From the NCBI GenBank assembly GCA_022181065.1, contig BQMY01000074.1, positions 124,001 to 188,000 of the forward strand: DNA of 64,000 nt. The letters are read 5' to 3'. The position numbers were made by a program, and so were the translations under genes. Of the stretch, positions 3,666-59,573 are shown one piece after another (the first letter of the stretch is position 1; every line of letters starts with the position of its first letter). The stretch comes from Melioribacteraceae bacterium (GTDB taxonomy: Bacteria > Bacteroidota > Ignavibacteria > Ignavibacteriales > Melioribacteraceae). The notes beneath the pieces were generated by a model. That model was given only the letters and a program-made list of their open reading frames with translations. It searched no databases and was not told the origin of the DNA.

Positions 3666-3870
3666 CATCCAGACTGGTGACAAGGTGAATTTCTTTTAAA
3701 GTCCTCCTTCTGAAGGAGGTGTATTCCGACGATAGTCGGAAGACGGAGGATGATTCATTACGCTTTTGGCGATTTTTAGTCATCCAATATCAAAAAAATC
3801 AGCTAATGGTTGGACGATTTCCCTCTTACAACCTATGCGCCTTAGTCTTAAGGAACCTCAATAGAAACAG
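3666..3870 (-). repeat. dispersed composite repeat, copy A (diverged full copy)
   Basis: Inverted relative to copies B, C and E. It begins with CCAGACTGGTGACAAGG (the terminal repeat), then a GTCCTCCTTC/GAAGGAGG hairpin, an inner TTCCGAC/GTCGGAA hairpin and GGAGGATGA (3699-3753). A decayed second module follows (GTCATCC at 3779, then GATTTCCCTCTTACAACC..GCGCC to about 3855) and aligns with module 1 of copy B. It fills the gap between two convergent genes. Confidence 0.75.
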
Positions 3871-12938: not shown

Positions 12939-15188
12939 ATGAGTATCCGCAAAGAAGACGCCCTCAGGTACCACAGTGAGGGAAGAAAAGGTAAAATTGA
13001 AGTTATAGCGACCAAACCATGCTTTACTTCGCGAGATCTTTCCCTGGCATACACACCAGGTGTTGCCGAACCCTGCCGAGAAATTCACAAAAATGATGAT
13101 GATGTTTACAAGTACACGGCAAAAGGAAACCTTGTAGCGGTGGTTTCCAACGGAACTGCGGTTCTTGGACTTGGAGATATTGGTCCGCACGGCGGTAAAC
13201 CGGTAATGGAAGGTAAAGGCGTTCTGTTTAAAAGATTCGCTGATATTGATGTATTCGATATTGAATTAAAAACACACGATCCGAAAGAGATCATTAAAAC
13301 CGTGCAGTATCTCGAACCTACATTCGGAGGTATTAATCTTGAGGATATCAAAGCACCTGAGTGTTTTGAAATTGAGGAAGAATTAAAACGCACCATGAAT
13401 ATTCCGGTTTTCCATGATGACCAGCATGGAACAGCTATTATTTCGTGTGCGGCTCTTCTTAACGCATCAGAAATCACAGGAAAAAAGCTTGAAGATATGG
13501 TCATGGTTGTAAGTGGCGCGGGTGCCGCTGCTGTTGCTTGCTGCAATATTTATATGCAGGCAGGTATCAAACGTGAAAACATTCGTATGTTTGATTCTCG
13601 TGGTGTACTCCACAAAGGAAGAACAGACCTTAACGAATATAAAATGCAATTTGCCATTGATCAGGATTTTGAATCACTCGCCGCGGCAATGGTGGGTTCA
13701 GATGTGTTTATCGGGCTCTCCAAAGGTGATATCGTAACACCCGAAATGGTAAAAAGCATGAACAGCGATCCTATCATCTTTGCTATGGCTAACCCGGATC
13801 CTGAAATTCGTTACGAAGTTGCCGTTGAAGCAAGAAAAGATGTTCTTATGGCAACTGGAAGAAGCGACTATCCGAATCAGGTTAATAATGTTCTGGGCTT
13901 CCCGTTCATCTTCAGGGGCGCTCTTGATGTCAGGGCGAGTGCGATCAACGATGAAATGAAAATGGCTGCGGTAAAAGCTTTGGCGGAACTCGCGAAAGAG
14001 AAAGTACCTGAAGCAGTACTCAATGCTTACGGTGGTAAAGAATTTTCTTTCGGTCGCGAATATATAATTCCAAAACCGTTCGATCCACGAGTTCTATGGA
14101 AGGTTGCTCCTGCTGTAGCAAGAGCTGCTATGGAGACAGGTGTTGCACGTCAGCCAATAGAAGATTGGACAGAATATGAAGAAGAACTTAAAGAACGCCT
14201 TGGCTTCTCACAGGAAATTATCCGCGTAATGATCCATAAAGCGAAAGCAAGTCCGAAGAAAATTGTTTATCCTGAAGGCGAAGAGGAAAAAATAATCAGA
14301 GCCGCTAACGCTATTGTTCACGATAATATTGGTGAACCGGTTCTTCTTGGAAATGTGGAGATCATTAAAAACAAGATTACAGAGCTCGGTTTTGACCTTA
14401 ACAGATTTGAAATTATCGATCCTAAAAATTGTGATAAATGTGAAGATTACGCAAAGAAATTCCATGCTATGCGCCAGAGAAAAGGTGTAACTCCAAAAGC
14501 AGCGTTAAGATTAATGAAGAGTCGCAATTACTATGGCGCGATGATGGTGCATATGGGAGAAGCGCATGCGCTTATTGGCGGATTGACAACCCATTATCCC
14601 GAAACAATCCGTCCGGCGCTTCAATGTATTGGAAGGCGTGAAGGATTTACAGTAGCATCAGGTTTATACATTGTGCTCATCGGACGCAAAACATTGTTTT
14701 TCGCGGATACAACAGTTAATATAAATCCGACTATGGAAGAGTTGGCCGAAATAGCTATTCAGGCAGCTGATACTGTAAGCGAATTTGATATCACTCCTAA
14801 AGTAGCGATGCTTTCTTTCAGTAACTTTGGCTCTGTAAATCACGAAGAGTCCATGAAAATGAAAAAAGCTACAGAGCTTGTCAAGAAGTTTCGACCTGAT
14901 ATTATTGTCGATGGTGAAATGCAGGCGGATACCGCACTTGTACCGGCAATAACGGAACAAAGCTTCCCGTTCAGTAATATTCAGGGGGATGCAAACGTGT
15001 TAATATTCCCTAACCTGTCAGCGGGTAATATCGCATACAAACTTATGGAACGTACAACAAACGCGACGGTTATTGGTCCTGTACTTATGGGCTTGAGGAA
15101 ACCGGTGCACGTGCTGCAGCGTGGCGCTACAGTAGAAGATATAATAAACATGAGCGCGATAGCTGTCGTTGAAGCAAAGGAAAAATAA
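12939..15188 (+). CDS. maeB: malic enzyme with C-terminal phosphotransacetylase-like domain
   Basis: 749 aa, the length of MaeB-type hybrids. N-terminal malic domain ([37 protein letters not shown]), then an NAD(P)-binding domain ([28 protein letters not shown]) to about residue 410, then a phosphate acetyl/butyryltransferase-like domain (about 430-745, [12 protein letters not shown]...[19 protein letters not shown]). It converts malate to pyruvate plus CO2 and NADPH; the C-terminal domain usually has no transferase activity and mediates acetyl-CoA control. AAGGA precedes ATG 12939. Single gene, followed by duplicated terminator hairpins around repeat B. Confidence 0.93.
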
Positions 15189-15215
15189 AAAATTAATAAT
15201 TGTTTCTAATCTTGC

Positions 15216-15244
15216 TGCCGGAGTATCAAAAAGATATTCCGGCT
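15216..15244 (+). terminator. maeB terminator hairpin, first copy
   Basis: GCCGGAGTATC/GATATTCCGGC stem. It is identical over 29 bp to 15466-15494, on the other side of repeat B, but here it is followed by repeat sequence rather than a T-run. Confidence 0.7.
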
Positions 15245-15465
15245 GAGATTGTTGAGAAACCTGGTTGTTGATTTTCACGTCCCCCTTACGCCTGAGGCGC
15301 ACAGGTTTGAAGGGGGAAATCACTCCGCCAACGGCGGATTTTGTGATGGGGGATGACTAAAAGTCACAATAAATGCAATAAATCATCCTCCGTCTTCCGA
15401 CATTCGTCGGAATCCACCTCCTTCCAAGGAGGACTTTAAGACGAAACGACTTTGTAAACAGACTG
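15245..15465 (+). repeat. dispersed composite repeat, copy B (full length)
   Basis: 221 bp between two identical 29-bp hairpins. Left end GAGATTGTTGAGAAACC; right end TTTGTAAACAGACTG; these are imperfect inverted repeats of each other. Module 1 is CCCCCTT..GAAGGGGG with an extra CGCCTGAGGCG hairpin in the loop, an inner TCCGCC/GGCGGA hairpin and GGGGGATGA. Module 2, inverted, is TCATCCTCC, TTCCGAC/GTCGGAA and CCTCCTT/AAGGAGG. Confidence 0.85.
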
Positions 15466-15494
15466 TGCCGGAGTATCAAAAAGATATTCCGGCT
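15466..15494 (+). terminator. maeB terminator hairpin, second copy
   Basis: Same 29 bp as 15216-15244, followed here by TCTTTTTAA, so this copy has the form of a functional Rho-independent terminator. Confidence 0.75.
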
Positions 15495-15521
15495 TCTTTT
15501 TAATCAATTCAGGTTGGAAAT

Positions 15522-15935
15522 ATGGACTGTAAAAAAAACAGAAGAAATATTTTTCAAAGATTGTTTGGTTTATGTATCACAAAACTTCCTGATAACCCTC
15601 ATTGCTGGAAAGTGGTTGAAAATAAGTTGCAGATCGATCTGCAGAAGGCACCGGAATTATCAAAACCGGGCAGCGCCCTCCGTTTTGAAAATGAAAACAG
15701 GAAAATATTGGTTGTTCATTTTGAAAATGATACCTACGCGGCATATAATAATGAATGTCTGCATGCAAAACGTCGTCTGGACCCGGTTCCTGGAACGGAG
15801 ACTGTTCAATGCTGCAGCGTAGGAACTGCCACATATGATAAATCCGGTAAAGTTTTATGCGGTGAAGTTGAAGGGAATCTTAAAACATTTGATGTTACAC
15901 TTACAGACGAAAAACTGGAAGTTCACCTTATTTGA
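15522..15935 (+). CDS. Rieske-like protein with an incomplete cluster motif
   Basis: 137 aa, no signal peptide. From about residue 45 it follows the Rieske [2Fe-2S] fold: SALRFENENRKILVVHF, YAAYNNECLHAKRRLD (the C-x-H ligand pair), then QCCSVGTATYDKSGKVLCGEVEGNL and a final strand. The second ligand pair should be C-x2-H, or C-x4-H in related small proteins; here the His is replaced (CCSVGT), so only three ligands are visible. Cluster binding is doubtful unless one of the extra Cys residues substitutes. No oxygenase or cytochrome partner is nearby. Confidence 0.55.
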   Translation: MDCKKNRRNIFQRLFGLCITKLPDNPHCWKVVENKLQIDLQKAPELSKPGSALRFENENRKILVVHFENDTYAAYNNECLHAKRRLDPVPGTETVQCCSVGTATYDKSGKVLCGEVEGNLKTFDVTLTDEKLEVHLI

Positions 15936-22140: not shown

Positions 22141-22163
22141 TATCTCCCACGAACTGGAAAAGC

Positions 22164-22183
22164 GCCACCCCGAAGGGATGGCT
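22164..22183 (-). repeat. locus hairpin, distal copy beside repeat C
   Basis: GCCACCCC/GGGATGGC hairpin. It matches 22375-22395 across the element, with small changes in the loop and one base in the stem. Confidence 0.6.
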
Positions 22184-22374
22184 GAAATTGTTGAAAAACC
22201 TGGCTGTTGATTTTCAAGTCCCCCTTCCGAAGGGGGAGATCACGTTTTTTGTGATGGGGGATGACCAAAAGTCACAAAAAACGCAATAAATCATCCTCCG
22301 TCTTCCGACATTCGTCGGAATCCACCTCCTTCAAAGGAGGACTTTAGAACGAAATGACTTTGTCAACAGTCTGA
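22184..22374 (+). repeat. dispersed composite repeat, copy C (full length)
   Basis: 191 bp. Left end GAAATTGTTGAAAAACC; right end TTTGTCAACAGTCTGA. Module 1 is GTCCCCCTTCCGAAGGGGGA, an inner ATCAC/GTGAT hairpin and GGGGGATGA. Module 2 inverted is TCATCCTCC, TTCCGAC/GTCGGAA and CCTCCTT/AAGGAGGAC. The simplest copy, without extra loop insertions. Confidence 0.85.
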
Positions 22375-22395
22375 GCCATCCCCCAAGGGATGGCT
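22375..22395 (-). terminator. hairpin after the VIT/VWA gene, proximal copy
   Basis: GCCATCCC/GGGATGGC hairpin nine bases beyond the stop of the gene at 22404; probable terminator. Duplicated at 22164-22183. Confidence 0.55.
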
Positions 22396-34624: not shown

Positions 34625-34738
34625 TGCAGACTGCCGGTATTAAGAGTCCTCATTCTGATGCAGGTGGGTTCCTACGAAGTTGGAAGACGGTGGATGATTT
34701 ATTGGGAATTGAGACTTTTTGGTCATCCCCACCCCAAT
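34625..34738 (-). repeat. dispersed composite repeat, copy D (degraded)
   Basis: GCAGACTG end, decayed module 2 (AGTCCTCATTCTGATGCAGG, then GGAAGACGGTGGATGATTTATTG) and the GGTCATCCCC start of module 1. It abuts the stop codon of the S41 protease gene and is in the opposite orientation, relative to that gene, to most other copies. Confidence 0.65.
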
Positions 34739-42959: not shown

Positions 42960-42979
42960 AAGCGCGGTTACCCGCACTT
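42960..42979 (-). repeat. locus hairpin, distal copy beside repeat E
   Basis: AAGCGCGG/CCCGC-type hairpin, diverged; it matches 43202-43222 across the element (AAGCGCGG..ACCCGC.CTT against AAGCGCGG..ACCGCGCCTT). Confidence 0.5.
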
Positions 42980-43201
42980 GAGTTTGTTGAAAAACCTGAT
43001 TGTTTATTTCCAAGTCCCCCTAACGCCTGAGGCGCCCAAATCCGAAGGGGGAAATCACTTCGCCATAGGTGAATTTTGGGATGGGGGATGACCAAAAGTC
43101 ATGAAAAAAATAAAAAATCATCCTCCGTTTTTCGACTATCGTCGAAATCCACCTCTTTCAAAAGGAGGACCTGCATATGTCTACATTTTGTCAACAGTCT
43201 G
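42980..43201 (+). repeat. dispersed composite repeat, copy E (full length)
   Basis: 222 bp. Left end GAGTTTGTTGAAAAACC; right end TTTGTCAACAGTCTG. Module 1 has the CGCCTGAGGCG hairpin in its loop as in copy B, then GGGGGATGA. Module 2 inverted has TCATCCTCC, TTTCGAC/GTCGAAA (a compensated change on both arms) and CCTCTTT/AAAGGAGGAC. Confidence 0.85.
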
Positions 43202-43222
43202 AAGCGCGGCGAACCGCGCCTT
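43202..43222 (-). terminator. hairpin after the DUF3857 gene, proximal copy
   Basis: GCGCGG/CCGCGC stem with a CGAA loop, 26 bp beyond the stop of the gene at 43248. Related hairpin at 42960-42979. Confidence 0.5.
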
Positions 43223-53110: not shown

Positions 53111-53235
53111 CAAAACTCCGATATAAATAAGTAGTTATTCTAAATCTAATTATTATGGAGTTATAAATCCAGATTGTGTTTTTACGTGTACATATAAAAT
53201 AGTGAACAATTGATTTTTCACACATAATGAAATTA

Positions 53236-53313
53236 TCATCCTCCGTCTTCCGACCGAGTCGGAAGCCACCTCCTCCCGAAAGCTTACGGGACAGGTTCAA
53301 AAGGAGGACTTTG
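53236..53313 (-). repeat. dispersed repeat, copy F (module 2 only)
   Basis: TCATCCTCC, TTCCGAC/GTCGGAA and CACCTCC..AAGGAGGACTTT. The outer hairpin's loop contains an extra TCCCG/CGGGA hairpin plus ACAGGTT. Terminal inverted repeats and module 1 are missing. Lies between proC and the GNAT gene. Confidence 0.75.
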
Positions 53314-59489: not shown

Positions 59490-59506
59490 TCTAAGTACTC
59501 AATGAA

Positions 59507-59560
59507 TCATCCTCCGTCTTTCGACTATCGTCGAAATCCACCTCCTTCGAAGGAGGACGG
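59507..59560 (+). repeat. dispersed repeat, copy G (module 2 only)
   Basis: TCATCCTCC, TTTCGAC/GTCGAAA (same compensated variant as copy E) and CCTCCTTCGAAGGAGGAC. Lies between convergent genes and next to the CreD terminator hairpin. Confidence 0.75.
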
Positions 59561-59573
59561 AAAACGAAGGCTG

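Follow-up and report, generated by a model that had tools for sequence, protein, structure and literature searches.

Hairpins are known targets of transposition in the IS1182 family. IS1272 and TnSha1 target hairpins, many of them terminators, which are then deleted or replaced (PMC4923244, PMC5678879), and a review cited in these two papers covers palindrome targeting by some IS1182 members. In an alternative route, pathway b in Figure 13 of PMC5678879, each stem-loop of a cruciform is joined at its 5′ foot to a 3′ end of the insertion sequence (IS), with the result that the stem-loop is duplicated. In the portion of that paper drawn on here, pathway b is presented as hypothetical for IS1272 and is given without an example. 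As far as these sources go, hairpin targeting in IS1182 is already known, and whole-hairpin duplication has been hypothesised only, for IS1272. We found no description of a hairpin-duplicating MITE or IS in the papers searched; IS1182 entries in ISfinder may already list hairpin-sized direct repeats.

Here, we analysed a 64,000-nucleotide stretch of DNA (the window) from a Melioribacteraceae bacterium, the genome of which is a fragmented assembly of 4.9 Mb. In this window, a 221-bp element lies between two copies of a terminator hairpin.

Two copies of one hairpin flank a 221-bp element downstream of maeB

The features of the locus, in window coordinates, are as follows:
12939-15188, + strand: maeB, NADP-dependent malic enzyme-type gene upstream of the insertion (749-aa ORF; homologues in relatives)
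15216-15244, + strand: duplicated terminator hairpin, left copy (proximal to maeB), without a T-run
15245-15465, + strand: 221-bp MITE-like element, putative non-autonomous IS1182-type (ends set by aligning many other genomic copies)
15245-15264, + strand: left terminal inverted repeat, family consensus GAGATTGTTGAAAAACC (16/20 match to the 3′ end of an autonomous IS in the relative G033)
15446-15465, − strand: right terminal inverted repeat CAGTCTGTTTACAAAG, family consensus CAGWCTGTTGACAAAG (consensus 15/20 vs the 5′ end of the same G033 IS)
15466-15494, + strand: duplicated terminator hairpin, right copy (distal to maeB), identical to 15216-15244
15495-15501, + strand: T-run (TCTTTTT) completing the distal terminator (read from the sequence)
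15522-15935, + strand: 137-aa ORF downstream, on the same strand as maeB

The preliminary description of this locus had placed identical 29-bp hairpins on both sides of the element and a T-run beside the second only, and both statements were borne out by the sequence, by folding, and by the alignment of other copies. The 29-mer TGCCGGAGTATCAAAAAGATATTCCGGCT occurs with exact identity at the two positions and forms an 11-bp stem, with one G.T pair among the stem pairs, and a 5-nt loop; as DNA, it folds at −9.7 kcal/mol on the + strand (z −6.4). We found it twice in the window, where the expected count is 0, and just twice in the 4.9-Mb genome even when three mismatches were allowed, indicating that it is not a dispersed repeat. 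Other genomic copies of the element align with starts at 15245 and stops at 15465, and TCTTTTT follows the right hairpin copy only.

In 9 of 12 maeB loci of relatives, read from the printed sequences, a single terminator hairpin lies close downstream of the gene and there is no element, in line with a simple ancestral site. Because the proximal hairpin has no T-run and the distal copy keeps one, transcription of maeB probably passes the element and stops at the distal terminator. Such read-through to an intact terminator would leave the insertion nearly harmless.

The element belongs to a multicopy MITE family

The 221-bp stretch has the ends of a transposon but no gene, which makes it a MITE. 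It is short (<600 bp), multicopy, and intergenic, and neither a transposase gene nor a transposase-sized ORF lies across it. Target-site duplications accompany 31 of 44 copies (described below), and the terminal inverted repeats are held in common with the autonomous G033 IS (16/20 and 15/20). A direct search of the genome scored 40 copies of the family, and a 17-base core pattern gave 126 genomic matches versus 0 in a reversed control. Full-length copies start with GAGATTGTTGAAAAACC and finish with GACTTTGTCAACAGWCTG, which together make an imperfect terminal inverted repeat, and the interior consists of consecutive hairpins (−73.6 kcal/mol when folded as RNA, z −3.9). The element was absent from 78 same-family genomes, and the phage records searched gave no match.

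Further copies and fragments in the window are as follows:
22184-22373, + strand: second full-length element copy
22161-22183, + strand: left hairpin of the second copy, AGCGCCACCCCGAAGGGATGGCT
22374-22395, + strand: right hairpin of the second copy, AGCCATCCCCCAAGGGATGGCT
42980-43201, + strand: third full-length element copy
42960-42979, + strand: left hairpin of the third copy, AAGCGCGGTTACCCGCACTT
43202-43222, + strand: right hairpin of the third copy, AAGCGCGGCGAACCGCGCCTT, diverged from its left partner
3670-3853, − strand: partial element copy (consensus 40-221)
34637-34730, − strand: core-only fragment (consensus 105-198)
53218-53274, + strand: core-only fragment (consensus 120-178)
59500-59568, + strand: core-only fragment (consensus 132-201)

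Among aligned copies, the two arms of an internal hairpin change together (TTCCGAC/GTCGGAA to TTTCGAC/GTCGAAA) and its loops vary, a hint that the structure is under selection. The core also forms tandem arrays (L095, C93:51849-52701; L108, C142:6883-7767) with spacings of ~209 bp and ~434 bp, and there are many core-only copies whose ends differ from those of the element; the core may therefore belong to a second, wider repeat system.

Duplicated flanks are local stem-loops

A comparison of the flanks of other copies had been proposed as a check on the duplication. When the left flank was aligned with the right flank for 46 full-length copies, the median score was 32, versus 12 for mismatched pairs, and 70% of the copies scored at least 24, versus 0.4% of the mismatched pairs. 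In a second pass over 44 well-preserved copies, 31 had flanks that matched each other, and their duplications measured 15-44 bp. The duplicated flank was a local stem-loop in nearly every passing copy, with a different hairpin at each locus, and the feet of these stem-loops were typically A...T or AG...CT. A stem-finder of our own making had a 27% background, and folding energies were used in its place. The 30 nt beside the element folded at a median of −9.2 kcal/mol on the left and −11.3 kcal/mol on the right, compared to about −2 kcal/mol further out (P = 2e-7 and 2e-9).

The runs of A and T that accompany these hairpins were placed asymmetrically. A-runs lay outside the left hairpin copy only (17 of 31), and none was seen where the right copy meets the element; T-runs lay mostly outside the right copy (19 of 31), and three followed the left copy. 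This arrangement is as expected from insertion into a single A-run/hairpin/T-run site with duplication of the hairpin. As a control, core-only repeats with other ends in the same genome showed such a duplication in 1 of 34 cases. About 20% of the full copies had no duplication, owing to decay, recombination, or nested ISs.

Several loci showed other arrangements. At L041 (C84:17808 region) and L097 (C98, minus-strand copy), the duplication passes the hairpin and T-run and reaches a chance match to the left end of the element (TTGTTTTAAAACCTG; TGCTGAAAAACCGGGTT, within the 3′ end of a gene that probably encodes isocitrate dehydrogenase), and the left junction sits inside this match. These overlong duplications are not predicted by simple cruciform attack, and they may reflect one-ended transposition completed by homologous repair, or later conversion. 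At L047/L048 (C104:24256-25350), a 310-bp direct duplication (91%) takes in the element's right end with its hairpin and the sequence that follows; it probably arose by recombination and not by transposition. A second multicopy IS, with the end CAATGCTGTCAACTTAAGGG, sits in CCTT..AAGG hairpins within copies of the element family and breaks the assembly there (L113, L123, L128, L144, L145, and L148-L155, contig ends); its duplication looks like the hairpin tip, and no transposase was recovered for it. A third insertion type, recognised by its end TGTAGCGTCCTGAAATAGGTTGAC, is found close to where element copies begin on the left, also at contig ends (L138, L010, and L016).

A probable IS1182-type parent transposase

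An end-motif search of 79 same-family genomes led to an IS of ~1.57 kb in G033 (L274:1471-3040), the ends of which (CAGACTGTTGACAAA / CAGGTTGTTGAAAAA) match those of the element, asymmetry included. Its 481-aa transposase belongs to the IS1182 family by NF033551 (NCBIfam; 472 bits vs a cut-off of 270), an assignment that holds for this autonomous partner, the window element itself having no transposase gene. Copies of the hairpin GAACTAC-TCC/GGA-GTAGTTC stand on both sides of the G033 IS, in inverted and not direct orientation (loop TCC vs GGA). The element's own genome yielded no intact transposase with such ends, and the parent was therefore deduced from this relative. Judging from its ends, the 221-bp element probably is, or was, mobilised by an IS1182-type transposase.

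Other candidate origins were rejected. The own-genome DDE_Tnp_1 genes (L159-L161) were considered as parents; the IS1182-type gene at C95 has ends (GGCTGACTAAAAAG) unlike those of the element, and a chance match to the element end pattern there falls in the coding 3′ end. An IS5-type parent was suggested by the resemblance of the element ends to ISPg4, but the transposase found is of the IS1182 family. Membership of the IS1202 group, which is characterised by a TnsB-like transposase and 5′-TGT ends, was raised by the long duplications and was dropped because the parent transposase is IS1182 by NCBIfam. Finally, a REP/BIME (RAYT-mobilised) origin was set aside, as the RAYT gene in the genome (C99) has its own, different REP hairpins. 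This RAYT (Y1/HUH) gene (L130, C99:42500-43150) lies between its REP hairpins (GGGAGGGTCAGTGACCCTCCC) and adjoins a remnant right end of the element.

Related plasmid elements and their empty sites

When plasmids were searched at the protein level, 1,928 records contained a relative, and we read 14 IS1182 elements from Bacillota, Alpha- and Gammaproteobacteria (Bacillus, Alkalihalophilus, Brevibacillus, Salinivibrio, Vibrio, Rhizobium, Sphingobium, Aminobacter, Klebsiella, Salmonella, and Providencia). Twelve of the 14 had direct copies of one whole stem-loop on either side, different for each element, together with ends related to CAGACTG..GACAAA, the same combination that is seen in the copies of our element. 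Of the remaining two, one had two different hairpins and the other had inverted copies inside a larger inverted repeat. At L297, the two bracketing hairpin copies were inverted, as in G033 L274.

For five of the twelve elements, other plasmids were searched with a query in which both flanks were joined with one hairpin. All five queries, which represent sites of the related plasmid ISs and not of 15216-15494, found a single-hairpin empty site: L293, L296, L289, and L298 at 100% identity over 100% of the query, and L287 at 99.6% identity. These uninterrupted sites indicate that insertion adds the element plus one extra hairpin. In a distant Enterococcus group (~43% identity), whole-hairpin duplication was seen at one of three loci, and sampled ISCfr1-type and similar IS1182 elements (~27-29% identity) had other ends and no such duplication. 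The duplication is present in close relatives and missing at ~27-29% identity, and it is therefore a property of a clade and not of the whole IS1182 family. Overall, hairpin duplication is real, is general to this IS1182 clade, and is produced at insertion.

Proposed insertion via the feet of a hairpin

The earlier proposal, insertion at a terminator hairpin with duplication of the whole hairpin, is strengthened by the same structure at most well-preserved copies, in related IS1182 elements, and at 5/5 empty sites of related ISs. The best explanation, with a probability of about 0.88, is a MITE moved by an IS1182-type transposase that inserts at stem-loops, mostly terminators, via both 5′ feet of an extruded hairpin or cruciform. 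The choice of site, the extent of the duplication, and its dependence on the local hairpin are shown by the data. The duplications here also carry the signature of pathway b, as set out in the part of PMC5678879 used above. In the proposed mechanism, the transposase would link the element to each arm of the extruded structure at the 5′ foot; the two feet would be near each other in space, although 15-30 nt apart along the DNA, and gap filling would then copy the entire hairpin onto both sides of the element. With attack at the feet, the length of the hairpin, and not the enzyme, would set the length of the duplication. We infer that the hairpin is extruded and that it is used in double-stranded rather than single-stranded form.

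Alternatively, the target hairpin could be used single-stranded, on a lagging-strand template or a displaced strand. Stem-loops fold stably on one strand, and single-strand hairpin targeting is known in other systems. However, a direct duplication arises only if the two strands are joined at different ends of the hairpin, which a DDE transposase acting on a cruciform would achieve most simply, and we regard single-stranded use as unlikely.

Extrusion would be dispensable if the palindrome were recognised in ordinary double-stranded DNA and cut with a long, flexible stagger, as in the IS1202 group. ISs of that group are known for long duplications of unknown target, and AG...CT feet are common to many of the target hairpins here. 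Against this, the duplication length varies within one family with nearly the same ends (15-32 bp is usual) and tracks the hairpin feet, the target sites share no primary sequence beyond the A/T-G/C feet, and IS1202-type transposases are of another family than the G033 parent. A staggered cut of this kind is quite improbable in our judgement.

We give very little weight to the element having been copied in by replication or reverse transcription, whether by template switching at hairpins or by group IIC intron-like retrotransposition. Group IIC introns do insert at terminators, the element core is a set of hairpins, and the left junctions of L041 and L097 lie in target/element homology; however, the element ends are terminal inverted repeats common to an IS1182 transposon coding a DDE-type transposase, there is no Rfam intron match in 15100-15600, and the odd junctions fit one-ended transposition with homologous repair, or later conversion. 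A retro-type mechanism is unneeded. The idea that ancestral loci already had two tandem hairpins, or that the element carries its hairpin along, with no target duplication, accords with the identical copies at 15216-15494 but has next to no credence, as the hairpins are locus-specific, the 29-mer hairpin is unique in the genome to this locus, the maeB loci of most relatives have one hairpin, and the tandem-hairpin reading is refuted for the related ISs by 5/5 single-hairpin empty sites.

Implications

Target-duplication length is normally fixed for a given transposase and is used for classifying ISs. A length that varies with the target hairpin points to a transposase that senses DNA shape, and such an enzyme could serve to study cruciforms in living cells. 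Landing on terminators while leaving an intact one behind suggests a route to high copy number. Somewhat better than evenly supported, in our estimate, is the general proposal that the clade of IS1182 transposases with CAGACTG ends uses both 5′ feet of an extruded hairpin as points of attack, that secondary structure sets both the length and the content of the duplication, and that terminators would be a renewable safe harbour for MITEs. For genome annotation, terminator-flanked 3′ ends are an extra class to expect, and the same hairpin on the left and right is a simple rule for spotting IS1182-type elements and their MITEs.

Comparison with known systems

ISBspe1-type IS1182 elements, such as that of Alkalihalophilus pseudofirmus pBpOF4-01 (L288), closely resemble our element in their end motif (CAGRYTGYTGASAAA type) and likewise duplicate whole stem-loops; they are autonomous, at ~1.5 kb with a transposase gene, whereas the window element, at 221 bp, lacks such a gene. 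MITEPye1 of Paracoccus yeei is also an intergenic MITE with an IS1182-family parent assigned from its ends, but it has 4-bp duplications and 1-3 copies per chromosome, in contrast to the dozens of copies and hairpin-length duplications here (PMC11578231). The IS1202 group also makes unusually long duplications (16-28 bp); it differs in its TnsB-like transposase family and 5′-TGT ends, with no hairpin target reported (PMC10132070). In Porphyromonas gingivalis, MITE464/PgRS and ISPg4 have an end (GAGACTGTTGCA) resembling that of the element (GAGATTGTTGAA), and about half of the BrickBuilt MITEs adjoin predicted terminators; however, MITE464/PgRS and ISPg4 are assigned to IS5, and BrickBuilt duplications are reported to be short (PMC4596501).

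IS1272 and TnSha1, in the sections of the two papers considered here, resemble the group of our element in having an IS1182-family transposase, stem-loop or terminator targets, and little primary sequence preference (PMC4923244, PMC5678879). The preliminary description had regarded a 29-bp hairpin duplication as unusual; it is less isolated than supposed, given this known hairpin targeting, but those elements delete and do not duplicate. IS1272, by the same accounts, makes no duplication, and the stem-loop is removed or replaced, in part or in full, whereas our element duplicates the whole stem-loop, and intact hairpins stand at both 15216-15244 and 15466-15494. If our reading is correct, these insertions would be a natural demonstration of the stem-loop-duplicating pathway hypothesised for IS1272 in the part of PMC5678879 that draws it.
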